Source: Myxococcales bacterium
GTDB taxonomy: Bacteria; Myxococcota_A; UBA9160; UBA4427
Assembly (NCBI GenBank): GCA_022563535.1
Contig: JADFNE010000038.1
Span: 1-40,968, forward strand
Length of the DNA: 40,968 bases
Direction: 5' to 3'
Below the pieces are notes generated by a model, which had not been told where the DNA came from, ran no database searches, and saw nothing but the letters and a program-made list of their open reading frames with translations. Below are positions 18,825-40,626 of the stretch, piece by piece; the first letter of the stretch is position 1; every line of letters starts with the position of its first letter. The translations under genes were made by a program, and so were the position numbers.

Positions 18825-20897
18825 CTAAGCGCCACCCCCATGTTTTTCGATCTGCTCCTTTGCCGATGCCGCGATGCGATCCACGGTAAAGCCAAACTTG
18901 TGCTGGAGCTCGGCGAGTGGTGCCGAAGCTCCAAAGGAATTCATTCCAATACAGCAACCTTCATTGCCGACATAGCGCTCCCAGCCAAAGGTCGAAGCCA
19001 GCTCGACCGAGACGCGCGCCCTGATGTGCGGGGGCAAAACTTCCGCTCGGTACTCTGGACTCTGCTGCTCGAAGAGTTCCCAGGAAGGCATGCTGACCAC
19101 GCGAACCTTCACGCCCTCGCCACTGAGTTGTTCACTCGCCTCGAGGCAGAGCGAAACTTCAGTGCCGCTCGCAATCAGGATGACTTCGGGTTCTCCTTCG
19201 CTGGGGTCGGATAGAACATAGGCCCCTTTGGCAACTCCCGAAGCGGGGGCCAGATTGGCTCGATCCAGGGTCGGCATGGCTTGGCGACTGAGAATCATGG
19301 CGACGGTCTCGTGGCGCAGCGCCATGGTGACCCGCCAGGCTTCGGCGACCTCGTTGGCGTCCCCCGGCCGGAACACAATCAGGCCCGGAATCGCTCGCAT
19401 CGACGGCAGCTGTTCGATGGGTTGGTGGGTGGGCCCGTCTTCGCCCACGCCGATCGAGTCGTGGGTGAAGATGTAGATCACCGGGAGCTCCATCAGTGCG
19501 CTCAGCCGCATGGCGCCTCGGGCGTAGTCGCTGAAGATCATGAAGGTCGAACCGTAGGGGCGCAGTTTTGCGGCCGACATGCCGTTCAGAATCGAAGCCA
19601 TGGCGTGTTCGCGGACGCCGAAGTGAAAGTTTCGTCCCCCGTATTCATCGGCGCGGAAGTCGCCGGCGCCTTCCGCCTTGATCCGGGTGAGGGTCGAGGG
19701 GGCGAGATCCGCCGAGCCTCCCACCAGCCACGGCACCCGGCCGGCCAATTCATTCAGCACGATTTCGGACGCCTGGCGCCCGGCCATGCCCTTGGCGTCG
19801 GGCTCGAACTTCGGGATCGCCTTTTCCCAGTCGGCCGGGAGCTGGCGGTGTTGCATGCGATACAACTCGTCCGCCAGTTCTGGATACTGTTCCTTGTATC
19901 GCTCGAACTGAGCCATCCAGGCGCCTCGTAGGGCAGAACCCCGATCGCCGATGCCGTCGGCAAAATTTTCGCGCACCGCTTCGGGGACCAGGAACTTTTC
20001 GTCTTCTGGCCAGCCGTAGGCTTGCTTGGTCAGGCGTATTTCTTCGTCGCCCAGCGGGCTGCCGTGGGCCGCGCTGGTGTCTTGCTTGTTGGGTGAGCCG
20101 TAGGCGATATGACTGTCGACAATGATGAGGGTAGGGCGGGAACTCTCGGTCAGAAACGCATTGAACGCGCGATCGAGACGGTCGACATCGTTGGCATCTC
20201 CGATTCGCAGTACGTTCCAGCCATAGGCCATGAAGCGCGTGGCCACGTCTTCCGAGAATGCCAGATCGGTGTGGCCTTCGATCGTGATGTGATTGCTGTC
20301 GTAGATCCAACACAGATTCGACAACTGCAGATGGCCCGCGAGGGAAGCCGCTTCCGATGAGACATCTTCCATCATGCAGCCATCGCCGCAGAGCGAGTAG
20401 GTGTTGTAGTCGAACATGTCGAAACCCGGTCGGTTGAAGCGGGCCGCCATGTGTCGCGAGGCGATGGCCATGCCGACACTGGTCGCTAGCCCCTGGCCCA
20501 GGGGACCGGTGGTGGTTTCGACGCCCGAGGTCCAACGATATTCGGGGTGACCGGCGCACTTGCTTCCCAGTTGGCGGAAGTTTCGGATGTCGTCGAGGGT
20601 GACGGCCTCGGTCCCCAGTTTTTCGTACTTTCCGTTGACCGCTTTGACGCCGGTGAGGTGCAGCATCGAGTAGAGCAGCATCGATGCGTGTCCGGCGGAA
20701 AGGATGAAACGGTCCCGGTTTGGCCAGATTGGATCTTCGGGGTCAAAGGCCAGAAAGTGTTGCCACAGGGTGTAGATTACGGGTGCCAGGGACATCGCCG
20801 TACCCGGGTGCCCCGAGTTCGCGGCCTGTACTGCGTCCATGGACAGCGTTCGAATGGTGTTGATGGAGGTGAGTTCGATCCCAGTAGCTTCGCTCAT
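18825..20897 (-). CDS. tkt: Transketolase
   Basis: A 690-residue thiamine-diphosphate transketolase. The ThDP/metal site is GDGCMMEDVSSEAASLAG from residue 171 with Asn202 (YDSNHITIEG). Conserved histidines include His30 (ANSGHPG) and His70 (LSAGHASMLLY). The pyrimidine-domain motifs GVREHAMASILNGM and EDGPTHQPIEQL are present, as is a C-terminal domain. It moves two-carbon units between ketose and aldose phosphates, linking ribose-5-phosphate and xylulose-5-phosphate to glycolysis. The length is slightly above E. coli TktA (663). AGGGGAT precedes the ATG. It follows tal-pgi by 128 bp. Confidence 0.96.
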   Translation of the reverse strand: MSEATGIELTSINTIRTLSMDAVQAANSGHPGTAMSLAPVIYTLWQHFLAFDPEDPIWPNRDRFILSAGHASMLLYSMLHLTGVKAVNGKYEKLGTEAVTLDDIRNFRQLGSKCAGHPEYRWTSGVETTTGPLGQGLATSVGMAIASRHMAARFNRPGFDMFDYNTYSLCGDGCMMEDVSSEAASLAGHLQLSNLCWIYDSNHITIEGHTDLAFSEDVATRFMAYGWNVLRIGDANDVDRLDRAFNAFLTESSRPTLIIVDSHIAYGSPNKQDTSAAHGSPLGDEEIRLTKQAYGWPEDEKFLVPEAVRENFADGIGDRGSALRGAWMAQFERYKEQYPELADELYRMQHRQLPADWEKAIPKFEPDAKGMAGRQASEIVLNELAGRVPWLVGGSADLAPSTLTRIKAEGAGDFRADEYGGRNFHFGVREHAMASILNGMSAAKLRPYGSTFMIFSDYARGAMRLSALMELPVIYIFTHDSIGVGEDGPTHQPIEQLPSMRAIPGLIVFRPGDANEVAEAWRVTMALRHETVAMILSRQAMPTLDRANLAPASGVAKGAYVLSDPSEGEPEVILIASGTEVSLCLEASEQLSGEGVKVRVVSMPSWELFEQQSPEYRAEVLPPHIRARVSVELASTFGWERYVGNEGCCIGMNSFGASAPLAELQHKFGFTVDRIAASAKEQIEKHGGGA

Positions 20898-21025
20898 GCG
20901 TGCATCCCCTATGACCCGCGTCGAGGCGGGTCATTCCCAATGTTGCAAATTGATGGATCAAAGTCGCGCGGGCGAGCGCGGGTCTTCGACCCAACGATGT
21001 CGGCTAGATTTCGGCTATGGGAGCG

Positions 21026-23881
21026 TCAGCTTTGGAGAGCGCGATGTACTGCTGCGGCGAGATGTTCCAGTCCGGCGCGGACGTCCGCGCCGAGATGAAT
21101 GCGTAGGGCGCGACGTTCGCGCCCCGCCAGGACTTCCAGATCCCCTTGCGCCTGTGCGCTCTTGAGGACCCCAAATGTGTACTTCTGACCGGGGATCGCG
21201 AGATCGTTTGCATCGTCCGCGGTCACCTGGAGAAAGACTCCGCGATTCGGGCCGCCCTTGTGCAGCTGTCCGGTCGAATGCAGAAAACGCGGGCCGTAGC
21301 CGAGGGTCGTGGCCACCTTGTAGTGATCCCGCACTTCGTGTCGCAAGCGCTGGAGCGGCTCGTCGTGGCTGTTGTTCATCTCCACGTAGGCGTTGATGGC
21401 GAAGTAGTCTCCGCGTCCAATGCGGGCCAGATGAGACTTCACGATCGCATCGAGGTCGTCTCCGCTGATTGCCTGGGCGTTTCGTTCGTCGGCATACACC
21501 GAGATGCCGTCCGCCTCGAAGATCGCCGTCTCTGCCGGCAATGAGCCGTCTTTCTCGTAGGCGTCCATGAGCGCTTTGGCTGCAATCTTGGCGGCCTCGA
21601 CGTCGGGCTGATTGAAGGCGTTGATTTTGAGAATCGATCCCGCCACCGCGGTGGCGACCTGCCAGCGGAAGAATTCCTGGCCCAGATCGCGTTTGTCTGC
21701 GAGTTCGAGACGAACCACCGGATGCCCTGCTGCTTCGAGCGCGCTGACGGCGGCGTCCTGGTCGGCGCACGCATCGCTTGCGAGGCGAATGTAAACGAAC
21801 AAACGGTCGTCCCCGTATTGATCGGGAGGCGCCAGCTGTTCGCCGTCCACGGGAACAATGCCGCGGTCCTGCTTGCCGGTGGACTCGGCGATCAGCTGTT
21901 CAATCCACGCGCCCAGGGTTCCAATTGCGGGGGATGCCACCAGGGTGAGTTTGTCCCGGCCCTGTCGCGCCAGGATGCCGAGGATCACACCGAGACGGAT
22001 GCCCGGGTTGTGGGCTGGGGGGACCGAGCGCGAACAGGAGTCGACCATCAGCTGGGTGCGCGCGAGGAAGTCTTCGACGTCAATGCCGAGACACGCGGCC
22101 GGCAACATGCCGAACGCCGAAAGTGCCGAAAAGCGTCCGCCGATCGACGGGATGCCGTACACGATCGATGAGAATTTTTCGCTCTTCGCCTGTTCGTCCA
22201 GCTTCGTGCCGGGGTCGGTGATGGCGACGAAGCGAGTTTCTGCGCCTGAGCCGCCCAGCGCTGCCGAGACTTTGTCCCAGAAGTAGGCTTTGAAGGTGTT
22301 GGGTTCGATGGTGCCACCGCTCTTGGAGGGCACGACGAACAAAGTCTTGGTGAGATCGATTTGCGATTCGACTGCGGCGATCTGGGATGGGACCGTCGAG
22401 TCGAGGACAAGCACTTCGGGATAACCGCTGGCAGGACCAAAGGTTCGGCTCAAGACGTCCGGGCAGAGACTCGATCCGCCCATTCCCATCACCACGACGT
22501 GGGCAATGCTCTCGTCTTTTACACGAGCAGCAATCGTTTGCAGGCTGGTGAGGTTGTCCCGCCAGCTGTCGAGCACAGGCAGCCAACCCAGCCACTCTGC
22601 CTCGTCGTCACCGCTCCACAGCGAGGCGTCGCCGTCCCAGAGCCGGCGAACGTTGCCGTCGGCGCGCCAGTGATCCATTTCGATCGCCACTGCGTCGGCG
22701 CTCTCACCGAGCTTGGCGTCAAACTTGGCCAGACGGTTCCCTAGCGCGGATTCGCGCTTGGATGCCACCGCTGCGAGCAAAGTGTCAAACGCGTCACTGA
22801 AGAGTTGGCAGCCCTTGGGAAGCAGTTCGTCGGTGATCTCCTTGAGGCTGATCCCCACTTCCTCGAGATCGCTCAGAATCTTTCGCGCGTCGGCAATCGA
22901 CGCCTGCTTGTCGGCTCCGAGGGCATCGCTCGCGGTACCTTCGGCGCGAAATGCGTCGAGGGTTGCGGTGGGAACGGTATTGACGGTGAATTTTCCGATC
23001 AGGGCATCGACGTAGAGAGTCTTGGGTAGATCGGGGCTCTTGGTCCCGGTGCTGGCCCATAGAACCCGTTGGGGCATGGCGTTCTTGGCTGCGAGCGCCT
23101 TCCAGCGATCTCCCGCGATGACCTCGTCGAAGTGGGCGTACGCCATCACTGCGTTGGCGATTGCGACCTTGGAGCGAAGACCTTCGAGGGTTGCGCGTTT
23201 GCTTGCGTCTTTTTCGTTCTCGAGCAACTGGCTCAACTGCGCATCCGCCATGGCGTCGATGCGACTTACGAAAAAACTCGCGACACTGGCCACCCGGCTC
23301 ACATCGCCGCCATTGGCCGCGAGGGTTTCGAGGCCCTCGATGTAGGCGTCAGCCACCGCTTTATAGGCATCGACTGCGAAGAGCAGCGTGACGTTGATGT
23401 TGATTCCTTCGCCGATCAGCTGGGCGATCGCGGGAACGCCCGCGCTCGTGGCCGGAACCTTGATCAAGAGATTTTCGCGATCGACCGCTTTCCACAGACG
23501 GCGCGCCTCAGCGAGAGTGCCCTGGGTGTCATCGGCCAGGTATGGAGAAACTTCCAGGCTCACGTAGCCATCGACTCGGTTCGTCGAGTCGTACACTCCG
23601 CGAAGCGCATCGGTTCCCATTTGAATGTCGGCGATGGCGAGGTGTTCGAAGAGCGTGACCGCCTCTCCGATCCCTTGTCCGACCAGTTCTTTGATCGACG
23701 GGTCGTAGTCCGATGAACCGCCGATCGCCTTCTCGAAGATCGCTGGATTCGAAGTGACGCCGAGAATTCCGTCGTCGCTGATCAGGCGCGCCAATTCGCC
23801 GGAAGAGACGAGTTCGCGACTGATGTTGTCGTACCAGATGCTCTGACCAAAATCTTGGACCTTTCGAATCGGATTACTCAT
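21026..23881 (-). CDS. tal-pgi: Bifunctional transaldolase / glucose-6-phosphate isomerase
   Basis: A 951-residue fusion. Residues 1 to about 370 are transaldolase: GVTSNPAIFEKAI (41-53), YVSLEVSPYLADD and the Schiff-base region ENLLIKVPATSAG with Lys141. From about 380 on it is a phosphoglucose isomerase with the SIS fold: VVVMGMGGSSLCPDVLSRTF, SKSGGTIEPNTFKAYFW and SIGGRFSALSAFGMLPAAC. A short extra C-terminal segment follows. It joins a sedoheptulose-7-phosphate/erythrose-4-phosphate exchange to return of fructose-6-phosphate to glucose-6-phosphate, which would allow cyclic oxidation of glucose for NADPH. Such fusions are known in several phyla. It is the first gene of the minus-strand run, with GAGGA about ten bases before the ATG. 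Confidence 0.95.
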   Translation of the reverse strand: MSNPIRKVQDFGQSIWYDNISRELVSSGELARLISDDGILGVTSNPAIFEKAIGGSSDYDPSIKELVGQGIGEAVTLFEHLAIADIQMGTDALRGVYDSTNRVDGYVSLEVSPYLADDTQGTLAEARRLWKAVDRENLLIKVPATSAGVPAIAQLIGEGININVTLLFAVDAYKAVADAYIEGLETLAANGGDVSRVASVASFFVSRIDAMADAQLSQLLENEKDASKRATLEGLRSKVAIANAVMAYAHFDEVIAGDRWKALAAKNAMPQRVLWASTGTKSPDLPKTLYVDALIGKFTVNTVPTATLDAFRAEGTASDALGADKQASIADARKILSDLEEVGISLKEITDELLPKGCQLFSDAFDTLLAAVASKRESALGNRLAKFDAKLGESADAVAIEMDHWRADGNVRRLWDGDASLWSGDDEAEWLGWLPVLDSWRDNLTSLQTIAARVKDESIAHVVVMGMGGSSLCPDVLSRTFGPASGYPEVLVLDSTVPSQIAAVESQIDLTKTLFVVPSKSGGTIEPNTFKAYFWDKVSAALGGSGAETRFVAITDPGTKLDEQAKSEKFSSIVYGIPSIGGRFSALSAFGMLPAACLGIDVEDFLARTQLMVDSCSRSVPPAHNPGIRLGVILGILARQGRDKLTLVASPAIGTLGAWIEQLIAESTGKQDRGIVPVDGEQLAPPDQYGDDRLFVYIRLASDACADQDAAVSALEAAGHPVVRLELADKRDLGQEFFRWQVATAVAGSILKINAFNQPDVEAAKIAAKALMDAYEKDGSLPAETAIFEADGISVYADERNAQAISGDDLDAIVKSHLARIGRGDYFAINAYVEMNNSHDEPLQRLRHEVRDHYKVATTLGYGPRFLHSTGQLHKGGPNRGVFLQVTADDANDLAIPGQKYTFGVLKSAQAQGDLEVLAGRERRALRIHLGADVRAGLEHLAAAVHRALQS

Positions 23882-24074: not shown

Positions 24075-27000
24075 TCATTCCCAGAAACTGCTGAAACTTC
24101 CGCAGTCGATCTCAGGGATTTCCCCGGGTGCCTCTACCGGGTTTTCAAGAACCACGGGTTCGCCGTTTCGGAACCGCAGGTCGATCCGCCCATCGAAGTC
24201 GGTGTCTTCGTCTTGCTGGACGACCGTTTGTCCCCGATATATCTGCACGACGTCGGGCCGCCCGTCACCGTTGGTGTCGGCTTCGACCCCGACCAACTCA
24301 CCGTTGCGATAGAGCTCGCGCCGGTCCGTCACGCCCCGGTTTTCGCTGTCGATCAACGCGTGGGAAGCCACCCCGTTTGCGAATGAGAGTTGCACCTCGA
24401 AATCGCCGTCGCCGTCCTTGTCTGTGCATTGACGGGTCACCTGGCCGGAACTGGCATAAAAAACCTTCTGGTCCGGCCTGGCCGTCTTGCCCCTTGCCAT
24501 CTCCTGAATGACGAGCTTCCCCCGCTCATCGAATTCGTAGAGGAGATGCGCACGACCGCGTCCCTCGGTGTCTCGCGCGCGGCGAAACAGTCGCCCGTTC
24601 TTGTAGTAGTTCCACTCGTCGTATTTACAGTCGCCATCGGAGTCTTTCTCTTCGGCCGTGACGTCGCCATCTTTGTTCAGCCAGCGCCGGATGTCGACGC
24701 AGTTTCGGCCGGCACTGCGCATCTCGAGCAGGTTCGCGCTGCCATTCTTGTAAAACACGGTCAATTCGATCTCGCCGTCTCCGTCCGCGTCCGTCTCGCT
24801 GCGAACGACCTGACCGGCTTTGAAGTGACGCGTGGTTTCGAAGCGTCCGTCGAAGTCCGCGTCGTCCTGGCTGCGGGTGATCGTGGTGCCGTCGCTTGCG
24901 AAGTGGGTGCGGAGATCCGCCTTGCCATCGCGGTTGCGGTCCTCGAGTTGCTCGACCTTGCGGCCCTTCTCATAGACGAGCTTTGCGATCCAGGCGCCGG
25001 CGAGATCGCCGTCGTGAATTGTGGTCTCGACGAGTGTGCCGGCTATGTATCGGCTCACCTCTTCGAAGCGTCCGTCGAAATCTCGATCACGCTCCTCGCG
25101 TTGAATCAGACCTGCTCGGTGAATTCGTACCGCGTCGATTTTGTTGTCAAAGTTAGTGTCGAATTTTTCGCGCAGGGGTTTTCCGGCGGCATCGAGTTCC
25201 ACCCATAGGTCGATCGCGCCGTCCCCGTTGCGGTCGCGCTCCTGGCGAACCTGCTGGTCTGCGGAAAAGTAGAGCGTCGAATCGATCTGACCGTCGCCGG
25301 TCGTGTCGATTTCTTGTCGCACCCGAATTCCCGCTTCGAAATAGGTCACGATGTCGAAGCGACTGTCTGCCCGGGTGTCTCGCTCTTCCAGGATCTTGCT
25401 GTCGGCTTCGAAGTGTTGGCGCAAATCGAACAGGCGATCGCCCGTGGTGTCCCGTTCAAATACGCTGACGCGGCCTTCCGGATCGAGTTGGCCTCGGGTT
25501 TCAAACCGCCCATCGTAGTCGTCGTCGCGTTCGTAGCGGATCGCGACTTCGTCCACATGGAAGAAGCGCTCGTCGGTCTTGCCGTCGGCATTTCGATCTC
25601 GATCGACCCGCTGGAGTTTTCCCAGTTCGTCGTTGTAGCGAAACGTGTCGGCGTCACCGTCGCCGTTGCTGTCGCTAAAGACCGTGAGCGGTTGTTTGCT
25701 GTCGGGGTCGAAAACGATCCACAGGTCTACCCATTGGTCGTGATTCTGGTCTTGTTCGCGACGAATGAGGGCGCCCACAAAATCGCCTTCGGATGCATAG
25801 AAACTCCAGCTGTCGATTTCGCCGTCGAAATTTTCGTCGAGTTCGACGCGAATCAGCACCCCGTTCTCGTAGTACTCGGTGCGGTCGGGCTTGCCGCGCC
25901 GGCGAGAATCGATGCTGCGCTCGACGATCAAACCCTCGTCGAATAGGCTGGTGGTTTCGAAAAATCCGTCGGGCTCGCTGTCGAGTTCTTCCCGGCTGAT
26001 CCTCTCTTCGAGGTCGAACTGGTAGCGGACGTCGACGTCGCCATCGCCGTTGCGATCCTCTCCCTGATGCGTTTTGCGGCCTTCGGTAAAGAAAATTGCG
26101 GTGTCGAGTTGGCCGTCGCCGTTCGAATCCACGTGCTGTTCGCTGATGAGTTCATCTCGGAACAAGGTGACGAGGTTGGGGACTCCATCGCCGTCCGGGT
26201 CTTCGACTTCCTTGGTTTTCACACCCCCTTGATAGAATCGGGTGATGTCTGGGTAGCCCGCGTTCTTGGTGTCGATCTCCTCGCGCTCGAGATTGCCAGC
26301 CGGGTCGAGGAACGCGTGGACTTCTGGCCGGCCGTCGAGTTTGGAGTCGAAGATTCGTTCTCGCTGGATTCCCAGCCGGTACTCGATCCGGGTGTCGAAA
26401 CGGCCGTCTCCAGTGGTGTCGGCTCGGCGCAGTGTGATCGACGAATCCGCATAGGTTGTGACGACATCTTTGTTGCCGTCTCCGGTCGTATCTTCTTCGG
26501 CGCGAATGGTTTGGCCGTCGCGGAAGTAGAGCGAGAGGTTGAATTTGCCGTCCCCGTTGTTGTCCTGGTGCTCCAGCAGTTTGCTGCCGTCGAGATCGAA
26601 TTCGGCGTGGAGATCGACTCGCCCGTCGCGATCCCGGTCTTCTTCCACAACGCTCGGCTTCCCGCCCAGGTAAAAGGTCCAACGATCAAAGCGCCCGTCG
26701 AAATCGCGATCCTCTTCCCGCCGGCTTGCCTCGCCGTCAATGAATTCGCTGCGGATGTCTACCTGGCTGTCTGCGTTGGTGTCGTCTCGCTGGCGCACTG
26801 GGAGATCGTCGGCGTAGTCGATCCAGCGATCGACGGCGGCGTCGCCAGTGGTGTCGAGTTCGCGCAGACGAATGTGGCCGTCTGCGTACTGGCTCCACGA
26901 GTCGAGCCGGCCATCGTGATCGCGGTCGCGCTCGGAGCGCACGGGCTTGCCTTGCTCGTAGAAGACGAACTCATCGTGGCTGCAATCGCGGTTGGTGTCG

Positions 27001-27191
27001 CTGCGTCGTTCGCTCAATTCTTCGTTTTCGTCGTAGAGCAAGACGATGGGGATGCACTCAGTCTCGGTCGCTCGGGCGGGTGTGGTGAAACCGAGTCCCA
27101 ATCCAATCATAACTCCAATTACAGCTTCAATTACAACTCTAATAGCAACAGCGGCGATCAAGAGAAAATTGCAGGGCGTTCTGCGCGTCAT
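24075..27191 (-). CDS. Secreted protein of about 39 Asp-rich (calcium-loop-like) repeats
   Basis: 1038 residues. An N-terminal hydrophobic stretch (residues 9-38) ending ARA-TETE reads as a signal peptide or anchor. Almost all the rest is a tandem repeat of about 24 residues with the pattern D-x-N/D-x-DG-x-x-D-x-x-x-x-F/Y-x-x-G-x-x-x-x-x-E. I count 39 units, some degenerate. The D-x-D-x-DG part looks like a calcium-binding EF-hand or thrombospondin-3 loop, and the F/Y-x-x-G half recalls MORN/YD-type beta hairpins, suggesting a long calcium-stabilised solenoid. Cysteines occur at the N-terminal end and in the last quarter. It starts 24 bp after tonB on the same strand and ends DCGSFSSFWE. No named family is recognised; a periplasmic or surface role with the TonB system is inferred. 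Confidence 0.75.
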   Translation of the reverse strand: MTRRTPCNFLLIAAVAIRVVIEAVIGVMIGLGLGFTTPARATETECIPIVLLYDENEELSERRSDTNRDCSHDEFVFYEQGKPVRSERDRDHDGRLDSWSQYADGHIRLRELDTTGDAAVDRWIDYADDLPVRQRDDTNADSQVDIRSEFIDGEASRREEDRDFDGRFDRWTFYLGGKPSVVEEDRDRDGRVDLHAEFDLDGSKLLEHQDNNGDGKFNLSLYFRDGQTIRAEEDTTGDGNKDVVTTYADSSITLRRADTTGDGRFDTRIEYRLGIQRERIFDSKLDGRPEVHAFLDPAGNLEREEIDTKNAGYPDITRFYQGGVKTKEVEDPDGDGVPNLVTLFRDELISEQHVDSNGDGQLDTAIFFTEGRKTHQGEDRNGDGDVDVRYQFDLEERISREELDSEPDGFFETTSLFDEGLIVERSIDSRRRGKPDRTEYYENGVLIRVELDENFDGEIDSWSFYASEGDFVGALIRREQDQNHDQWVDLWIVFDPDSKQPLTVFSDSNGDGDADTFRYNDELGKLQRVDRDRNADGKTDERFFHVDEVAIRYERDDDYDGRFETRGQLDPEGRVSVFERDTTGDRLFDLRQHFEADSKILEERDTRADSRFDIVTYFEAGIRVRQEIDTTGDGQIDSTLYFSADQQVRQERDRNGDGAIDLWVELDAAGKPLREKFDTNFDNKIDAVRIHRAGLIQREERDRDFDGRFEEVSRYIAGTLVETTIHDGDLAGAWIAKLVYEKGRKVEQLEDRNRDGKADLRTHFASDGTTITRSQDDADFDGRFETTRHFKAGQVVRSETDADGDGEIELTVFYKNGSANLLEMRSAGRNCVDIRRWLNKDGDVTAEEKDSDGDCKYDEWNYYKNGRLFRRARDTEGRGRAHLLYEFDERGKLVIQEMARGKTARPDQKVFYASSGQVTRQCTDKDGDGDFEVQLSFANGVASHALIDSENRGVTDRRELYRNGELVGVEADTNGDGRPDVVQIYRGQTVVQQDEDTDFDGRIDLRFRNGEPVVLENPVEAPGEIPEIDCGSFSSFWE

Positions 27192-27215
27192 AGGGCGAGG
27201 AGAGTAAGCAATCTC

Positions 27216-28355
27216 TCAGGGCACTTCAGGATTGCTGAAGGTAAGCCTGAAGATTTTTTCGGTAAGACAGCGATTTTTGTCGTTGAGGGGTGGGAACGGC
27301 GCAGCGTTCCGGTAGGCGATCATGGCACTTTCGGCAAAGGGTCGGCTTGTCGATTCGATCATCTCGAGCTTCGCGATAGATCCCGATTGATCGATCGCGA
27401 TACGAAACTGGACCACGTCGTCGGGGCTGGCGTCCAGCGGGGGCTCCCATCGAGCGTAGGTGCGGCGCGTGATTTCATCCAAATAGCGCTGAACAAAAGC
27501 ACTCTGCAGGCAAGAGATCGTGGCGACGGCGTTGGGATCACCGCCCGCAAATCCCGCGGCAAGGTATTCGGCGGAAATCCCTGTCGCGATCGTGGTCCCG
27601 CCAGTTTCGCTGCCTGCGATGGCCGTCGGCACCGCAGTCGCAGCTCCCTTGTAATGGGTCGCGTTCAGCTCCGACAAAGTATCGAAGGCATGTGGGGCGA
27701 CGAGGTCCGTGGCCGTCCGGATTGCAACCGCGCTGGGACCGCTGATCTCGACCTCGGGTGCGACGAGATCGGCGGCGGCGATTTCCAACGGTTGAATTGC
27801 GCTGATGTCTGCTGCGCTCGGGGTAGCGTGGATTTCGGCCTGGGGCGCCAGCGGAGCGTTCATGACCTCGGTCAGATCCAGTGACTTGGGCGCGACGAGA
27901 TCGAGGCTCGTTGCTTCGATCCTCGGTGCGGGAACCGCCGCGAGGTTGACCGGCTCCATCGCTGGAGGGACGACGCTGGCCATCGGCGCCGAGAGCAGCT
28001 TGGGAATCGGCAGGGGAGAGGGATCATTCGAGCCCGGCAGTTCGATCGGCTCGTTCAAGATAACGACCGGAATCAATTTTTCGGCCGCCTGTTTCGCGAT
28101 GGTTCCCAGCAAGGCGATGCTTGTGATGATCAAGATGTGAAGCAGTGCCGACGCCGCGCTGGAAATCAAAATCCGCCTGCGGTCTTCGGGTTCGGGCATG
28201 CTGAGCCCCGGCAGCGCAGCCGCGCTCGCGGCAACGACCAGGGGGTCGAGCGGTTGACCGGTCTTGAAAATGCTCCCGGGCGCGCCCATGCGAAGTCGGG
28301 GTGCTGTGTGCACTCTCGATCGTTTGCGATTCGATTTCAGGCTGCGACTCATCGC
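27216..28355 (-). CDS. TonB/TolA-like energy-transducing protein
   Basis: Taking ATG 28355, the protein has 379 residues. A basic cytoplasmic tail (MSRSLKSNRKRSR) leads to a membrane helix at about 60-85 (ILISSAASALLHILIITSIA). A long periplasmic linker rich in Ala, Pro and Val follows, with a recurring DLVAP motif. The C-terminal TonB domain covers about 295-379 (RRTYARWEPPLDASPDDVVQ, IDQSGSIAKLEMIESTSRPF, AMIAYRNAAPFPPL). A Cys pair (SCLQSAF, NRCLTEK) may form a disulfide. Divergent exbB-exbD encode its motor. In-frame codons continue upstream to 28505, so the start is not certain. TonB couples the proton-motive force to outer-membrane transport or, in TolA-like proteins, to envelope maintenance. 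Confidence 0.85.
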   Translation of the reverse strand, partial: AMSRSLKSNRKRSRVHTAPRLRMGAPGSIFKTGQPLDPLVVAASAAALPGLSMPEPEDRRRILISSAASALLHILIITSIALLGTIAKQAAEKLIPVVILNEPIELPGSNDPSPLPIPKLLSAPMASVVPPAMEPVNLAAVPAPRIEATSLDLVAPKSLDLTEVMNAPLAPQAEIHATPSAADISAIQPLEIAAADLVAPEVEISGPSAVAIRTATDLVAPHAFDTLSELNATHYKGAATAVPTAIAGSETGGTTIATGISAEYLAAGFAGGDPNAVATISCLQSAFVQRYLDEITRRTYARWEPPLDASPDDVVQFRIAIDQSGSIAKLEMIESTSRPFAESAMIAYRNAAPFPPLNDKNRCLTEKIFRLTFSNPEVP

Positions 28356-28627
28356 TCGCTTGGGTCCCTCACCGGTAGGCTCAGTACGCTGCGGGTCATC
28401 GGGGAAGCAGGGCAGTGCTGCGATCCATTCCCCTGGATCACGAGATAGCGCACTCGAGGCGGCTCCGGGTAGGACGCTGCTCCGCGCCGCTCGGTTCCCG
28501 TCCACACAGACTCGAAACTGGTACCTCGGGTTACCGAGCCCGAGCCTGTGCAGGTCACTTGGGCCTCCGTTAATCTCGGGTGCCGACGACCGCCCTGATC
28601 CCGCGCAGATTCTCGAGAGGGAAGTCC
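28356..28627. promoter_or_regulatory. Divergent promoter region of tonB and exbB
   Basis: About 270 bp between divergent starts must carry both promoters. I could not pick out a convincing -35/-10 pair or a Fur-type operator by eye. A GAGAGGGA ribosome binding site precedes the exbB ATG at 28628. Confidence 0.4.
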
Positions 28628-29287
28628 ATGTTTACAAGCGAGCACTTCATCGATCTCATCATCATGGGATGGCTATCCAACATTCCGCTGGCGATCGGTT
28701 CCATCATCAGCATCTCCGTGTTTTGCGAGCGGCTCGTGAGCTTCAAAGGTCTCGAAGCGTCGTCTCGCCGGATGGCAGCGTCGACGATCGATGCCATCGT
28801 GCGTCGGGACCTCGAAGCTGCAAAGCGCATCTGCGCCGATTCGAAACTTCCGGTGGCAGCGGCGTTTCACGAAGCCCTGGGTTGGAACAACGTCGCGGCC
28901 GAAGATTTGGATCGCGTCCTGGCGACCCGGCGCGCTGAACTCGCCAGTGGACTCAAACGCGGCGTCTGGATGATTGGTACCGTCGGATCACTCGCGCCCT
29001 TCGTCGGATTGTTTGGCACGGTGGTGGGCATCATTCGCGCATTCGGGGTGATGTCGAGAAGCGGCGATACCGGCTTTCAGGTGGTGTCGGCGAACTTGTC
29101 TGAGGCGTTGATCGCAACGGCCGCCGGGCTCGGGGTAGCGATCGTCGCCCTGATCTTCTTCAATTATCTGCAGATCCGGATCGGATCCCTGAACGCGGTC
29201 TACGCCCGGGCGAGCGAACGGCTCGTGCAGGCGCTCATCTATGTAGAAACCAACGCAGAAACCAGCGCCGGCGAAAGCGAGTCCTGA
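28628..29287 (+). CDS. exbB: ExbB/TolQ/MotA-family proton channel protein
   Basis: From ATG 28628 the protein has 219 residues with three membrane segments: residues 8-30 (IIMGWLSNIPLAIGSIISIS), the GTVGSLAPFVGLFGTVVGII region, and SEALIATAAGLGVAIVALIF. The last two contain the family hallmarks GLFGTVVGII and ALIATAAGLGVAIVAL, forming the stator channel with ExbD. Start 28628 was preferred over an in-frame ATG at 28580 because of the GAGAGGGA site and because the earlier sequence is not membrane-like. The exbD ATG follows one base after the stop. It powers the divergently encoded TonB-like protein. Confidence 0.94.
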   Translation: MFTSEHFIDLIIMGWLSNIPLAIGSIISISVFCERLVSFKGLEASSRRMAASTIDAIVRRDLEAAKRICADSKLPVAAAFHEALGWNNVAAEDLDRVLATRRAELASGLKRGVWMIGTVGSLAPFVGLFGTVVGIIRAFGVMSRSGDTGFQVVSANLSEALIATAAGLGVAIVALIFFNYLQIRIGSLNAVYARASERLVQALIYVETNAETSAGESES

Positions 29288-29288
29288 G

Positions 29289-29732
29289 ATGGGCGCCAAA
29301 CCGATTGGCGGAGGAATCGAAGATGTTGGCGACGAGATCGTCGCCGAGATCAACGTGACTCCACTCACCGATATTTTTCTGGTTTTGTTGATCATCTTCA
29401 TGGTCACGAGCAGCGTGATCGTGGAAGAGGGCAAGAACATCGATCTTCCGGACGCCTCGGTGGCGGAGGACACTACACCAAACGGTGTTATTGTTTCGAT
29501 GAGCGCCGAAGGGGAAATTCTGATCAACGATCAGCTGGCGGAACCCGGATCGGTGTTGCGGTTGCTCGAAGTTGCGCTCGAACAGGCGGACGACAAGATC
29601 GTGATTCTGCGGGGCGATGCGAGTGTTGCGTTGGGGCGAGCGGTCAATATTTTGGATCTTGCACAGCAGGCTGGGGCCAAAGGGATTGCGATTTCGACGG
29701 AGCAGCCTACGGGAGCTTTGGAGATTCAATAG
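29289..29732 (+). CDS. exbD: ExbD/TolR-family protein
   Basis: 147 residues with the classical layout: a short cytoplasmic N-terminus, the membrane segment INVTPLTDIFLVLLIIFMV carrying the Asp essential for proton movement, then a periplasmic domain (NGVIVSMSAEGEILINDQLA, DDKIVILRGDASVALGRAVN) that binds peptidoglycan or TonB in relatives. It starts one base after exbB, so the two are translationally coupled. Its 3' end faces the gldG-like gene, with 78 bp between converging stops. Confidence 0.94.
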   Translation: MGAKPIGGGIEDVGDEIVAEINVTPLTDIFLVLLIIFMVTSSVIVEEGKNIDLPDASVAEDTTPNGVIVSMSAEGEILINDQLAEPGSVLRLLEVALEQADDKIVILRGDASVALGRAVNILDLAQQAGAKGIAISTEQPTGALEIQ

Positions 29733-29810: not shown

Positions 29811-31328
29811 TTAGGACTGGCGGTGGTGGAGCCAGGTCAGGCCTCCGGCGATGAGCAGGATTTCTGGGATCAGGAGGCCGACTCCGTAGAAGGCCTTCAA
29901 TGAGTTGGCGATGGGGACGGGGAACTGGATCAGCCCTGCACTTTTGGGGCGCAGGGTGATGCGATCTTGGCGGGCTACGGCCCAGTGCGCTGCGTTCATG
30001 ACCAGGTCGAGGTTGTAGAGGGCGCGCAGGTAGCGGTTTGACGCGAAGTCGCGGTCGCCGAAGGCAACGATTCGGGCCTCGCCACCCGAACGCGGGTAGC
30101 GGCCGGCGACGCCGAGATACTGGTAACCCACGCTGATGCCCGGCGGCATGGTTGGCGGTTCGCGTGAACCGAGTTCGAGTGGACCTTCGTGCAGCCAGGC
30201 GTGAGCGCTGGTGTAGACCACGGCCTGGAGATCATCGCGCGGTTGCGGTTTGTGCAGTGCGAAACTTCGAGCGCGACGAAAGACCGTATTGCGGTTGCGC
30301 TCGAGGCCTTCGGTGACGGGGTGTGTCGCGTAGTTGAACACGATGGGACTCAACCCGCGGATATCGCCATCGACCGGGTCTGAGATTGGATCCACCACCA
30401 GGGCGTCCGGAGATTGCAGACCGAATTCGGCCAACAGTCCCTCGAGCCCGCTCTGGACCCCGGGTTCGATGAAGGCGAGCAGACTGCCGCCGGAGTCGAG
30501 GTAGCCACGCAGCGCCGCGAGCGCATCGCTGCGCATGTTGCGCTGTGGACCGATCGCGACCACCAGATCCGCGTCTTCGGGGATCTCGCTCATGACCGCG
30601 CTGGGCAGGGTGCGGACATCGAAACCCTCGGTCTGAAAGCCCACCGCCAGGCCTGAAAATCCCGACGCAGATCCATCGTCGATGTTGCCTTCTCCGCTAC
30701 CCGTGGTGATGTAGAGAACGATGTCCCCGCGCCGAGCGAGGCTGGCGAAGGCTTCGAACAGCGCACCTTCGGTGGGACGTGACACTCGAATCCAGTCGTC
30801 GCCATGTTCTACGATGACGGTATTCGAGGAACCGATCCCGAAGCGATCCTCCGCTCCGGGTGACTCTTCGATCAAGAGCGTGTGGATCTGGACAGGGCGG
30901 TCCCGGGCAATTTCTCCGAGCAAAAGCCGGGTGCGGCGGATGCGGGGATCGCCCGGGTCGTGAAACAAGGTCAAGGAAACCGGACCCTCGAGCCGCGCAA
31001 GGGCGTCGCGGGTAGCCGGGGCAATCTGGAATTCCCCCTCGAAGGTCAAGTCGAAGCGCAGCTCGGATTGCGCGGCCAGCCGTTCCAGCAAGACGACACT
31101 GCCCGAAAGCACCACGGTATAGAGCAGCACCCGGTAAACGGATTCGAGCCGCACCCCGCGCCTCGTCCGGCGAATCTTGTGAAGTGTTGCGACCGCTGCG
31201 AAGAGCAGTGCAGCCAGGCCGATGACGAGATGCGCCGTCGCAAAGACGCTGAACTCTCCCTGTAGGCGATGACTTGCGAGTCCAAAAGCCGCGGCGATGC
31301 TGCCGAGAAGAAGGGCTTTGCGATTCAT
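29811..31328 (-). CDS. GldG-family auxiliary component of an ABC exporter
   Basis: A 505-residue protein with two or three N-terminal membrane helices (about 5-22, 30-50, 66-85), a large periplasmic domain beginning RFDLTFEGEFQIAPATRDAL, and a final membrane helix (about 480-500). The LTLFHDPGDP, DIVLYITTGSGEGN, DADLVVAIGPQRNMRSDALA and LRGYLDSGGSLLAFIEPG stretches match the GldG/ABC_transp_aux (DUF4350-like) pattern. In Bacteroidetes GldG works with GldF and GldA in gliding; in other phyla the same trio occurs with unknown cargo. Its ATG overlaps the permease stop (ATGA). An unsplit, membrane-anchored GldG with no Walker motif is normal. Confidence 0.85.
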   Translation of the reverse strand: MNRKALLLGSIAAAFGLASHRLQGEFSVFATAHLVIGLAALLFAAVATLHKIRRTRRGVRLESVYRVLLYTVVLSGSVVLLERLAAQSELRFDLTFEGEFQIAPATRDALARLEGPVSLTLFHDPGDPRIRRTRLLLGEIARDRPVQIHTLLIEESPGAEDRFGIGSSNTVIVEHGDDWIRVSRPTEGALFEAFASLARRGDIVLYITTGSGEGNIDDGSASGFSGLAVGFQTEGFDVRTLPSAVMSEIPEDADLVVAIGPQRNMRSDALAALRGYLDSGGSLLAFIEPGVQSGLEGLLAEFGLQSPDALVVDPISDPVDGDIRGLSPIVFNYATHPVTEGLERNRNTVFRRARSFALHKPQPRDDLQAVVYTSAHAWLHEGPLELGSREPPTMPPGISVGYQYLGVAGRYPRSGGEARIVAFGDRDFASNRYLRALYNLDLVMNAAHWAVARQDRITLRPKSAGLIQFPVPIANSLKAFYGVGLLIPEILLIAGGLTWLHHRQS

Positions 31329-32116
31329 ATGCCCACTCGTCGCAGCTCAATGGATAGCCGGGTCAACGCCGCCGAGATCATCACGAGCGCGAAGAAGTAG
31401 ACGAGATCTGAGAGCAGGATCAAGCCCTCGGACATGTGCGCGAAGCGCTCGTGAAGCGCGATGGCGTCGAGCGAGATCGCCACCGATTCACTGACAAAGG
31501 CGTGGGTCCAGCCGAAATCGTAGAGAATGAAGGTGAAGGCCACGGTCGTTGCCGCCGCCACGATCTGGCTCGAGGTGATTGCTGAGCACACGAGCCCAAT
31601 TGCGGCGATCCCAGTGGCGAGGAGCGAGAGTCCGAGAAAAACGCTTGCGAGGTGCTTCCATCCGAGGCCACCCTGCTCGATCGCCGTCGCGGGGTAGACG
31701 AAACTTACGGCCATCATCAAGACCACGAACCCGAGGGTCACGCTGTACTTCGAGAAGATGATCTGGGCGGGGGTCAAGCCGCTCGTCAACAGAAGTTCGT
31801 CGGTGCCGCGTTGTCGCTCTTCGGCAAAGACCCGCATGGTGACCAGCGGGATGGGGATGATGAGCAGTACACCGAGTTGTTCCATTACGGGGTTGAAGAC
31901 CGTATCGATCAAGTTTACGTGGGTTGGAATCGTGTCGGATTCGAAGCCGCCCATGGTATTGCTCGCAAACAGAAAGAGAATCTGGTTGTAGAGGCGCAAG
32001 TGTTCGAAGAAGGTGATCGCCGTGACCAGAGTCACCATGAAGAGCACGCCGTACGCGATCGGCGATCCAAAGAGCACGCTGCATTCTTTGCGCATCAAGG
32101 CCCAGGTTCGAATCAT
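31325..32116 (-). CDS. GldF-like ABC transporter permease (ABC-2 type)
   Basis: A 263-residue inner-membrane protein with about six hydrophobic helices. The N-terminus MIRTWALMRKECSVLFGSPI and the motif MRVFAEERQRGTDELLLTSG, followed by LTPAQIIFSKY, are the hallmark coupling-helix region of ABC-2 permeases of the GldF/NosY/CcmB-like class. It forms the membrane channel of the exporter whose ATPase lies upstream (4-bp overlap, 32113-32116) and whose GldG partner lies downstream (4-bp overlap). The substrate is unknown. Gene spacing shows a tight transcription unit that starts at aroA. Confidence 0.9.
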   Translation of the reverse strand: MIRTWALMRKECSVLFGSPIAYGVLFMVTLVTAITFFEHLRLYNQILFLFASNTMGGFESDTIPTHVNLIDTVFNPVMEQLGVLLIIPIPLVTMRVFAEERQRGTDELLLTSGLTPAQIIFSKYSVTLGFVVLMMAVSFVYPATAIEQGGLGWKHLASVFLGLSLLATGIAAIGLVCSAITSSQIVAAATTVAFTFILYDFGWTHAFVSESVAISLDAIALHERFAHMSEGLILLSDLVYFFALVMISAALTRLSIELRRVGI

Positions 32117-32880
32117 GGTGCTGCCGCCTCGGGTGCTTTGGATGCAAAGACGCCGCGAAACAAGTCGAGACTCTGGCCATCGCCCAGGATCTCCTCGGTT
32201 GGCCCGAGCGCGACGAGCCTTCCCTCGAACAGGATGGCCACGCGTTGGGTCAGCGCCCGGGCTTCCGCCAGGTCATGGGTACACAGAAGTAACGTCTGAT
32301 GGCCGCGAAGATCCGCGAGGCTTTTGTGTACGTACGCGCGCTGTAGTGGGTCGAGGCCGCCGGTCGGTTCGTCGGCGATCACCAGAGTCGGTTGGTGGAT
32401 GAAGGCCTGGGCGAGAGAGACGCGCTGCTGAAAACCCTTTGAGAGGTTGCCGATGCGCCGATCGCGCACGGAAGTGAGGTCGAAGCGTTCGAGCACATGG
32501 GACATCGCGCTCGCCAACGCGTCGCCTGCGAGTCCGCGAATTCCCCCGGCAAAGCGAAGGAAGCGAGTAACCGAGAGTTCGGGGTAGAGCAGCGAGGATT
32601 CGGAAACAAAGCCCAAACGCTCCTGGACAGCGCGAGGTTCGAGTACCGGTGAGTGACCATCGACGGTGATTTCGCCGGCGCTCGGCACCAGAAAACCCGT
32701 GACCATGCGGATGAAAGTCGTCTTGCCGGCACCGTTTGCCCCGAGCAGGCCAAAGCTTTCACCGGGTTCGATCTCTAGTTGGATGTCTGCGAGAGCGACG
32801 TGGTCGCCGAAGCGTCGTTCCAGCCCGCGCGCCACCACTCGTGCGCCTGTTCGGGTACCTGCCGGGGCACCCACCTCCAC
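32113..32880 (-). CDS. ABC transporter ATP-binding protein
   Basis: A 255-residue ATPase of the CcmA/GldA type. Walker A is GANGAGKTT (47-55), the signature is LSKGFQQR (146-153), Walker B is LVIADEPTGGLD (166-177), and the switch His is in LLLCTHDLAEA. The C-terminus has an Ala/Pro tail. The signature differs slightly from LSGGQ, as usual in this class. Translation begins at GTG 32880, directly adjoining the aroA stop codon at 32881-32883, so translation is probably coupled to aroA. It drives export with the permease and GldG-like proteins. Confidence 0.94.
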   Translation of the reverse strand: MEVGAPAGTRTGARVVARGLERRFGDHVALADIQLEIEPGESFGLLGANGAGKTTFIRMVTGFLVPSAGEITVDGHSPVLEPRAVQERLGFVSESSLLYPELSVTRFLRFAGGIRGLAGDALASAMSHVLERFDLTSVRDRRIGNLSKGFQQRVSLAQAFIHQPTLVIADEPTGGLDPLQRAYVHKSLADLRGHQTLLLCTHDLAEARALTQRVAILFEGRLVALGPTEEILGDGQSLDLFRGVFASKAPEAAAP

Positions 32881-39369: not shown

Positions 39370-40626
39370 TTACAGTGTTTTCGGCTCTGATTTGGGGTCC
39401 GTTTGGGGTCGCTTTGGGGTCCATACACGCGGATGCGTCAGGAGGTCAGTAGGGACCTGCCAGTTGAGAAGTTCAGTCGGCGACCGCCAAGCCTGCTCTT
39501 CACGGCGCGAAATCCACTTTGCGTACCGCTTTCGGAACATCGCCCAGGATCCTGGCGCATGCCCCATCCACCGCATGATCTGAGTCGTATCCCAACCGGC
39601 GGTCAGCAGGTGAGACGCGAACGTGTCCCGCAGATCCTTTGGGAGACGGCGGCCCAACCCGGCTGCTTTTGAGAGATCCGCGAAGACCTTCCGCTGGAAG
39701 TAGTCCTCGTGATGTGGCCATGCGGCAATCAATGGCTCAGTGTTGGATCCCAGCGCGAAGAACTCCCGAACGTGGCAACGGATCCGCCAGCTCATCGGCA
39801 CCCATCTCGTCTGACCACTCTTGGGCAACTCGGCAGCGAACCCCATCGGCCGATTTTCCGCAACTGCCAGGACCCGCGAGCGGTCTCGCATGTTCTCCCC
39901 GAGCTGGCAGTCAATTCGGCGAGTCGCGAAAGCTTCACCACGCCGTAGACCAGCGTCCAGCATGAGCAAAATCAACAAGTGCACATACTCGCAGCCCCGC
40001 TTCCGGCTCTCGTCCAATAGGGCTTCGACTTCGTCAAGCGATTCAATCGGGTTCCGTGTGTCTTCCTGGCGGTCGGCTTTGGTACGTGCGGTCCCTCGCA
40101 TCGTTCGCCGCACCGCAGCCGCGGGGTTGTCGATCTTGAAGCCCGACTGCGCCGCATACTGATATACACAACTAATTGCACTGAGGTATCGCTGTCCAGT
40201 TGCAGTTGAACGATTTCCGCCGACGATGAATCTTTCCCACCAACCCATGATTAGTTCAGGGGTGATTGTGTCGATTGGTATGTCGGCGAACTCTTCGTTC
40301 AGCACGGTCAGGCGCGTGCGCTGAGTCTTTACGGTTGTAGGGGCAAGCTTGTGGAGTTTTACCCCGCCCTTCAGGTATCGGTCCGACATCAACCTGAATG
40401 ATGGGATGCCGAGCGCGGCCTTTCCGAGCGTACCCGTGGCCTGGACTTTGTCGAGCTTCTCCTTGATTAGCTTTGCGCGACGGTGATTCTCGGGTGTTGG
40501 CGGCCCGATCAGCGTGGTCGCCTTCTTGCCCTGGTATTGCGAGACGACGACAAGCCAATCGGCTTTCGGGCTGTGCGCCCGATCCTTCCCCTTGACTTCG
40601 ACGTATGTGCGAATGCGTGTGCTCAT
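39370..40626 (-). CDS. Tyrosine-family site-specific integrase
   Basis: Starting at ATG 40626, a 418-residue tyrosine recombinase. The arm/core-binding part (residues 1 to about 190) includes TVKTQRTRLTVLNEEFADIP. The catalytic domain has the first Arg in LLMLDAGLRRGEAFATRR, Lys in LPKSGQTRWVP, the second Arg in PKDLRDTFASHLLTAGWD (Lys where many members have His), His in MRWMGHAPGS and the nucleophilic Tyr in FRKRYAKW. It is followed by a 40-residue C-terminal tail encoded partly by an 11-bp tandem repeat. It points at tRNA-Lys, 13 bp away, so it is the integrase of an element integrated there. Longer in-frame starts (to 40680) would overlap the upstream HTH gene. Confidence 0.93.
   Translation of the reverse strand: MSTRIRTYVEVKGKDRAHSPKADWLVVVSQYQGKKATTLIGPPTPENHRRAKLIKEKLDKVQATGTLGKAALGIPSFRLMSDRYLKGGVKLHKLAPTTVKTQRTRLTVLNEEFADIPIDTITPELIMGWWERFIVGGNRSTATGQRYLSAISCVYQYAAQSGFKIDNPAAAVRRTMRGTARTKADRQEDTRNPIESLDEVEALLDESRKRGCEYVHLLILLMLDAGLRRGEAFATRRIDCQLGENMRDRSRVLAVAENRPMGFAAELPKSGQTRWVPMSWRIRCHVREFFALGSNTEPLIAAWPHHEDYFQRKVFADLSKAAGLGRRLPKDLRDTFASHLLTAGWDTTQIMRWMGHAPGSWAMFRKRYAKWISRREEQAWRSPTELLNWQVPTDLLTHPRVWTPKRPQTDPKSEPKTL
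39391..39422. repeat. Three tandem TTTGGGGTC repeats with 11-bp period
   Basis: TTTGGGGTCC (39391-39400), TTTGGGGTCG (39402-39411) and TTTGGGGTCC (39413-39422) are phased at exactly 11 bp, within the 3' end of the integrase gene and 35 bp from the tRNA. They encode part of the KRPQTDPK-like tail. Candidate arm-type integrase binding sites of the left attachment site. Confidence 0.75.

Follow-up and report, generated by a model that had tools for sequence, protein, structure and literature searches.

A long beta-hairpin repeat protein linked to a Ton/Tol-type motor in Myxococcota: a possible partner in force transmission across the envelope

Introduction

Ton and Tol motors are regarded as understood from a small set of partners, namely the receptors and TolB-Pal. 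The locus described here raises the question of what a very long, aspartate-rich repeat protein is doing directly behind the transducer gene of such a motor, and whether the two act together. It lies in DNA from a Myxococcales bacterium, within a stretch of 40,968 nucleotides that was analysed as a whole and is called the window hereafter. The interval at issue, 24075-28355, comprises two genes, one for the repeat protein, named RepL here, and the other for the transducer, with a gap of 24 bp (27192-27215) separating the latter from RepL downstream. An earlier note on this DNA had placed RepL just after tonB, with exbB and exbD running divergently, and the coordinates confirm this arrangement.

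A predicted exported ribbon of beta-hairpins

The repeat protein is encoded on the reverse strand, and its features are the following:

24075-27191, (-): RepL, Asp-rich beta-hairpin repeat protein of 1038 aa, predicted to be Sec-exported (ORF, AlphaFold, orthologues)
27069-27191, (-): predicted signal peptide, residues 1-41, ending in TPARA (read from the sequence: hydrophobic residues, then an A-x-A site)
24180-26999, (-): repeat array, 39 D-x-[DN]-x-DG-x-x-D loops connecting beta-hairpins (AlphaFold and sequence)
24081-24104, (-): conserved C-terminal tail CGxFxxFW (alignment of the order)

The mature protein was modelled with AlphaFold from an 18-row alignment, giving a mean pLDDT of 89.1 and a pTM of 0.37. 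The model contains 80 strands, arranged as 40 short-turn hairpins with 39 long loops between them, and all but one of these loops (38/39) are exactly 9 residues long. The ligand positions 1, 3, 5 and 9 are all occupied by D, N, E or S in 25/39 loops, and at least three of them in 33/39. RepL contains 17 copies of the strict motif D.[DN].[DN]G..[DE], where 1000 residue shuffles gave 0.08 on average and never more than 2, and the autocorrelation of aspartates peaks at a lag of 24 residues (64 versus about 21 expected). Motif count, spacing and model together rule out that the repeats are low-complexity sequence arisen by chance. The protein is also very acidic, with 239 D/E versus 139 K/R.

The about 39 units of about 24 residues proposed in the earlier note, each combining a D-x-D-x-DG loop with a beta-hairpin, are thus borne out by the 39 modelled loops and the aspartate spacing, and the modelling, which that note had named as a check that a lack of ordered repeats would fail, returned ordered repeats throughout. 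Its term solenoid has to be dropped, since the model is a run of hairpins forming a single-layer sheet that resembles OspA and MORN proteins: as modelled, RepL is a single-layer beta-hairpin ribbon and not a classical solenoid. As for the calcium-stabilised rod that was also proposed, what speaks for it is the loop motif, by which Ca2+ would probably stiffen the ribbon. Dx[DN]xDG loops bind calcium in many folds, such as the calcium blades of integrins (PMC3123361). A fully extended ribbon would measure an estimated 38 nm or so, taking about 1 nm for the two strands of each hairpin, although the low pTM makes the shape a low-confidence one and leaves the overall form of the molecule open.

Orthologues have similar N-termini without a lipobox. 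The 19 full-length orthologues of the window's order, with mature lengths of 992-1097 residues, align repeat by repeat; the array is colinear and its conservation is even from end to end, which points to selection on the entire length rather than on one domain. In the tail, C989, G990 and W996 are invariant within the order, and C989 and W996 remain so when the sister order is included.

Searches with RepL gave no Pfam family above cut-off and, by sequence, no PDB structure; the Pfam MORN and MORN_2 models did not match up to E 0.1. The nearest named family is the NCBIfam adhesin Lsa25.6 (NF050087), at 90.4 bits and E 1.1e-25, below its 150-bit cut-off. The only matches of a profile search were lanmodulin and one more protein of the EF-hand type, both picked up through the DxDxDG motif they have in common with RepL. 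Compared by structure, the model comes closest to single-layer sheets: OspA, with a Z of 10.4 and an rmsd of 8.4 for 274 residues, and the MORN proteins RSP1 (Z 9.1) and TbMORN1 (Z 7.0). Rhs cages, ranked higher by Foldseek (E 1e-20), are disfavoured, the alignment being only local, with a TM of 0.12 and an rmsd over 50, and no Pfam RHS model matching.

A motor and a transducer of the Ton/Tol families

The genes on the other side of RepL read as follows:

27216-28352, (-): tonB/tolA-type transducer, 378 aa from the ATG at 28352 (Pfam TonB_2, 8.4e-7)
28086-28181, (-): transducer transmembrane (TM) helix with invariant His72 (alignment and model, helix 58-89)
27219-27512, (-): transducer C-terminal domain, residues 281-378 (model, Foldseek)
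28353-28579, no strand: divergent tonB/exbB intergenic region, 227 bp (coordinates)
28580-29287, (+): exbB/tolQ-type subunit of the motor pentamer (MotA_ExbB 1.5e-27, tree)
29289-29732, (+): exbD/tolR-type subunit of the motor axle, with conserved membrane Asp (ExbD 7.1e-25)

The modelled transducer consists of an N-terminal TM helix, a disordered linker and a C-terminal domain of the TolAIII/TonB-CTD fold, the latter with pLDDT values of about 88-96, mostly above 90, and with TolAIII and TonB-CTD structures as its Foldseek matches (TMt 0.61-0.75). A histidine in the TM helix is reported to couple TolA, TonB and vWA transducers to the motor (PMC12204202). Since the best sequence models are TonB_2 and TolA, the name tonB given in the earlier note holds as regards a transducer of that type and is better widened to TonB/TolA-type. 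ExbB and ExbD obtain their top scores with the TolQ and TolR models, and the membrane Asp of ExbD is kept in an alignment with TolR and ExbD of E. coli. The locus thus has what defines a Ton/Tol 5:2 motor, an ExbB/TolQ together with an ExbD/TolR bearing the essential Asp, as well as what defines its transducer, a single N-terminal TM helix followed by a linker and a TolA/TonB C-terminal fold. Both are ordinary Ton/Tol members. The same genome (G000) carries a separate tol-like cluster on contig C39 and three double-ExbB clusters with TonB_C genes (C28, C36 and C45).

Linkage and co-loss within the class

RepL was searched for in 379 genomes of the phylum Myxococcota at E <= 1e-30. Matches came from 76 genomes, all of the window's class, and none from the 288 genomes of the phylum outside it. 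In three of the 76 (G217, G284 and G144) only short ORFs of the size of RepS, described below, were matched, which leaves RepL in about 73 of the 91 class genomes sampled.

Throughout the window's order, tonB stands ahead of RepL in every locus with flank on that side (23/23), and exbB-exbD is divergent wherever there is enough DNA (20/20). The genes beyond this core are less constant:

29811-32880: GldG-like auxiliary protein, ABC permease and ATPase adjoining exbD, then aroA (most, not all, genomes of the order)

These aroA and ABC/GldG-like genes, which often flank the core, are missing or displaced at four loci (L064, L066, L054 and L062) that nevertheless retain tonB, RepL, exbB and exbD; near the module in L066 and L064, no gldG or ABC genes were found. 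The sister order presents another arrangement, tonB-RepL-RepS with exbD-exbB convergent (L083), and in one genome of the sister-order group (G102) exbB is divergent from the RepL locus and belongs to the window's ExbB clade. The survey for a conserved four-gene neighbourhood that the earlier note had called for was therefore strongly positive, homologues being found next to tonB, where their consistent absence had been named as evidence against the idea. The linkage of tonB and RepL is not a by-product of general synteny, given the changing flanks and the different gene orders in other phyla.

Elsewhere in the window, a 951-aa ORF (21026-23881) is apparently a fusion, transaldolase-like at its N-terminus and glucose-6-phosphate isomerase-like in the remainder, and shorter versions of about 1.1 kb occur in other genomes. 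At 39391-39422, the short unit TTTGGGGTCCC is repeated in tandem, with a period of 11 and 2.9 copies.

RepS is a short paralogue of RepL. It adjoins RepL in the sister order and is unlinked in the window's own, where it is found on another contig of the same genome (L035, that is G000:C24, about 20585-21337). By eye, RepS bears a lipobox and a Gly-zipper in several families (L040, L042, L047, L083 and L108), and in the window's own family it has an ordinary signal peptide. About 78 genomes of the class carry it and no other genome sampled in the phylum does, a distribution matching that of RepL. In one genus of the window's family (g10), all nine genomes sampled were without RepL, the exbB orthologue and RepS. 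This absence is one evolutionary event and not nine independent ones, and it removes the unlinked RepS along with the module. The seeming exception of an exbB without RepL (G358) is a contig that stops inside tonB. The evidence supports that ExbB, ExbD, the transducer, RepL and RepS form a functional unit.

The repeat family in other lineages

Among 345 genomes of Desulfobacterota, the phylum of Desulfosarcina alkanivorans, the repeat family is present in 19. The repeat gene (rep) lies immediately upstream of exbB in 17 of these, with exbD and tonB following in most; of the other two, one is a contig that stops after rep and one has exbD and tonB with no exbB detected. These proteins are shorter, with some 6-22 loops against about 39 in RepL, and they lack the CGxFxxFW tail of the class. 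A TonB-dependent receptor is found near 13 of the 17 loci, as a raw count; in the neighbourhoods of the Myxococcota loci searched, no such receptor was found. Since the number of hairpins varies so greatly between lineages, a fixed length spanning the periplasm could apply at best within the class.

Searching in the opposite direction, from a Desulfobacterota ExbB, retrieved 37 loci. Its close relatives mostly have the repeat gene upstream, with CbiO/CbiQ in its place in three, and several distant relatives have neither. The motor thus does not always need the repeat protein, as some of these relatives have no rep neighbour. Some Desulfobacterota Ton operons sit inside CbiO/CbiQ or CobN-like metal clusters (L289, L292, L293, L294, L091 and L291), with the repeat gene in some of them. 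D. alkanivorans itself (G379) has two rep-exbB-exbD-tonB operons, at C1:2859490 and C1:5751960, whose repeat proteins are 71% identical. No plasmid-borne version was found for Desulfobacterota.

A further arrangement comes from groundwater Deltaproteobacteria (L093, L096 and L100), in which two rep genes are followed by tonB-exbB-exbD; judged by eye, the product of the second rep gene in L093 has a lipobox-like N-terminus. RepL-like matches also appear in gut Bacilli/Clostridia MAGs (L092, L097 and others), and that of L092 fits SD-repeat adhesin models and is of low complexity. Genes with a vWA domain (Pfam VWA) stand beside repeat-linked exbB-exbD in the sister order (L085:10646-11974, minus strand) and in the groundwater lineage (L096:11400-12701, minus strand), and similar-looking ORFs hold the same position in L086, L093 and L100.

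In a tree of 78 ExbB sequences, the window's clade is made up of the RepL-linked genes of the class. The groundwater ExbBs are its sister (99/93), the rep-linked ExbBs of Desulfobacterota form a second clade and those of the sister-order loci L085/L086 a third, with TolQ outside. The repeat family is therefore linked to three well-separated ExbB lineages, a pattern that simple hitch-hiking within a single one would not produce. The tie of RepL to a TonB-type motor, as proposed in the earlier note, is upheld by a neighbourhood kept in at least four lineages with differing gene orders and by co-loss with exbB.

A possible role in force transmission

These observations could fit a reading in which RepL works outside the cytoplasm as the dedicated partner of one particular proton-driven ExbB-ExbD-TonB (TolQ-TolR-TolA-like) motor, likely in the form of a periplasmic, Ca2+-stiffened beta-ribbon that carries or anchors force, and we judge its chances to be about even. 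RepL would be exported by Sec and would fold as a ribbon of some 40 hairpins, held by D-x-D-x-DG-x-x-D loops that are predicted to bind Ca2+. The earlier note had suggested that the rod could span the periplasm or act on the surface. A periplasmic location seems more likely than a surface one, because of the Sec signal peptide and because Pfam and NCBIfam revealed in RepL no domain for secretion across or anchoring in the outer membrane, no barrel and no sorting signal; the protein would most likely remain in the periplasm. Domains of the TolAIII type bind their partners through strand addition, as in TolA-TolB and TonB-TonB box. That of the transducer may engage RepL in a similar manner, probably by beta-augmenting an exposed edge strand or the tail, and RepL would then carry or anchor force from the inner-membrane motor to the outer membrane or the peptidoglycan, with RepS as a second element, probably at the outer membrane. 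The shorter versions in Desulfobacterota would serve Ton systems, often near a TonB-dependent receptor, and the module of the Myxococcota class would stand alone.

The main rival to this force reading casts RepL and RepS as periplasmic or outer-membrane collectors of metal for TonB-dependent uptake driven by the linked motor, with loops that would bind a lanthanide, Ca2+ or some other divalent ion. The Desulfobacterota operons, often near TonB-dependent receptors, solute-binding proteins and CbiO/CbiQ or CobN-like genes, would suit such a role, as would the acidity of RepL and its weak sequence similarity to lanmodulin. That similarity, however, is due to the DxDxDG motif, the loops sit in a regular hairpin context as structural Ca2+ sites do, and the Myxococcota loci searched have no receptor. 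We consider metal gathering unlikely. Next comes a role at the surface, where the ExbBD-TonB motor would power the export, display or retention of RepL as a ribbon or adhesin. Some Myxococcota have TonB-linked secretion, and both the nearest named family, below cut-off, and the single-layer sheet recall surface proteins, the leptospiral adhesin Lsa25.6 and the lipoprotein OspA. We hold this to be improbable, given that RepL has a Sec signal peptide but neither a lipobox nor any recognised outer-membrane exit signal, and that no export channel is conserved within the module.

That RepL is simply co-transcribed with the motor and works alone would agree with the motor relatives that have no repeat protein. 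Against it stand an association maintained in three ExbB lineages and in four arrangements of the genes, and the loss of RepS, which is not linked, together with the module; we regard it as very improbable.

The force reading may be taken a step further, tentatively and with the chances rather against it, to an undescribed trans-envelope force module in which a rotary motor of the TolQR/ExbBD type and a TolA/TonB-type transducer would act on a Ca-stiffened ribbon of about 40 hairpins; a lipoprotein relative would serve as its anchor in the outer membrane, and the ribbon would be a calcium-gated mechanical element of lineage-defined length. A repeat-protein partner that is widely shared and crosses lineages would be an added component of the Ton/Tol machinery. 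It would then become testable by what means force or position is relayed through the periplasm, if calcium modulates this, and for what reason the number of repeats is kept in one class and variable in another phylum.

Comparison with known systems

In the literature searched, we found no description of a module joining RepL to a motor. As regards the protein itself, Lsa25.6 is the named family whose sequence comes nearest to the repeats, with about 200 aa in a protein five times shorter than RepL. OspA and the MORN proteins share with the model of RepL the build of consecutive hairpins forming one long sheet, and to our knowledge the nine-residue DxDxDG loops are found in neither OspA nor MORN repeats. 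The calcium blades of the integrin type (FG-GAP) have the same Dx[DN]xDG loops in a beta context, but there they belong to the blades of a beta-propeller, whereas RepL is an open run of hairpins.

Among envelope machines, Tol-Pal (TolQRA-TolB-Pal-CpoB) has the same type of 5:2 motor, and the C-terminal domain of the transducer is nearest to TolAIII, including that of the TolAIII-TolB peptide complex. The module is nonetheless not Tol-Pal: no match to the TolB or Pal families was obtained in the seven neighbouring genes scanned, the separate tol-like cluster lies on C39, and the partner here is a beta-ribbon. With the Ton system it shares the motor and transducer families, as well as a receptor often close by in Desulfobacterota, and it differs in having no nearby receptor in the Myxococcota class and an extra repeat protein beside the motor.

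A 2025 survey of periplasmic force transducers reported vWA and TPR partners, with vWA proteins proposed as partners of 5:2 motors (PMC12204202); in a term search of that survey, no RepL-like repeat protein came up. These vWA systems likewise have tolQR-like motors with unstudied trans-envelope partners, and a TM helix of the SHLS type with the motor-binding His (PMC12204202). In them, a vWA protein stands in for TolA/TonB, whereas the RepL module keeps the transducer and adds a repeat protein to it.
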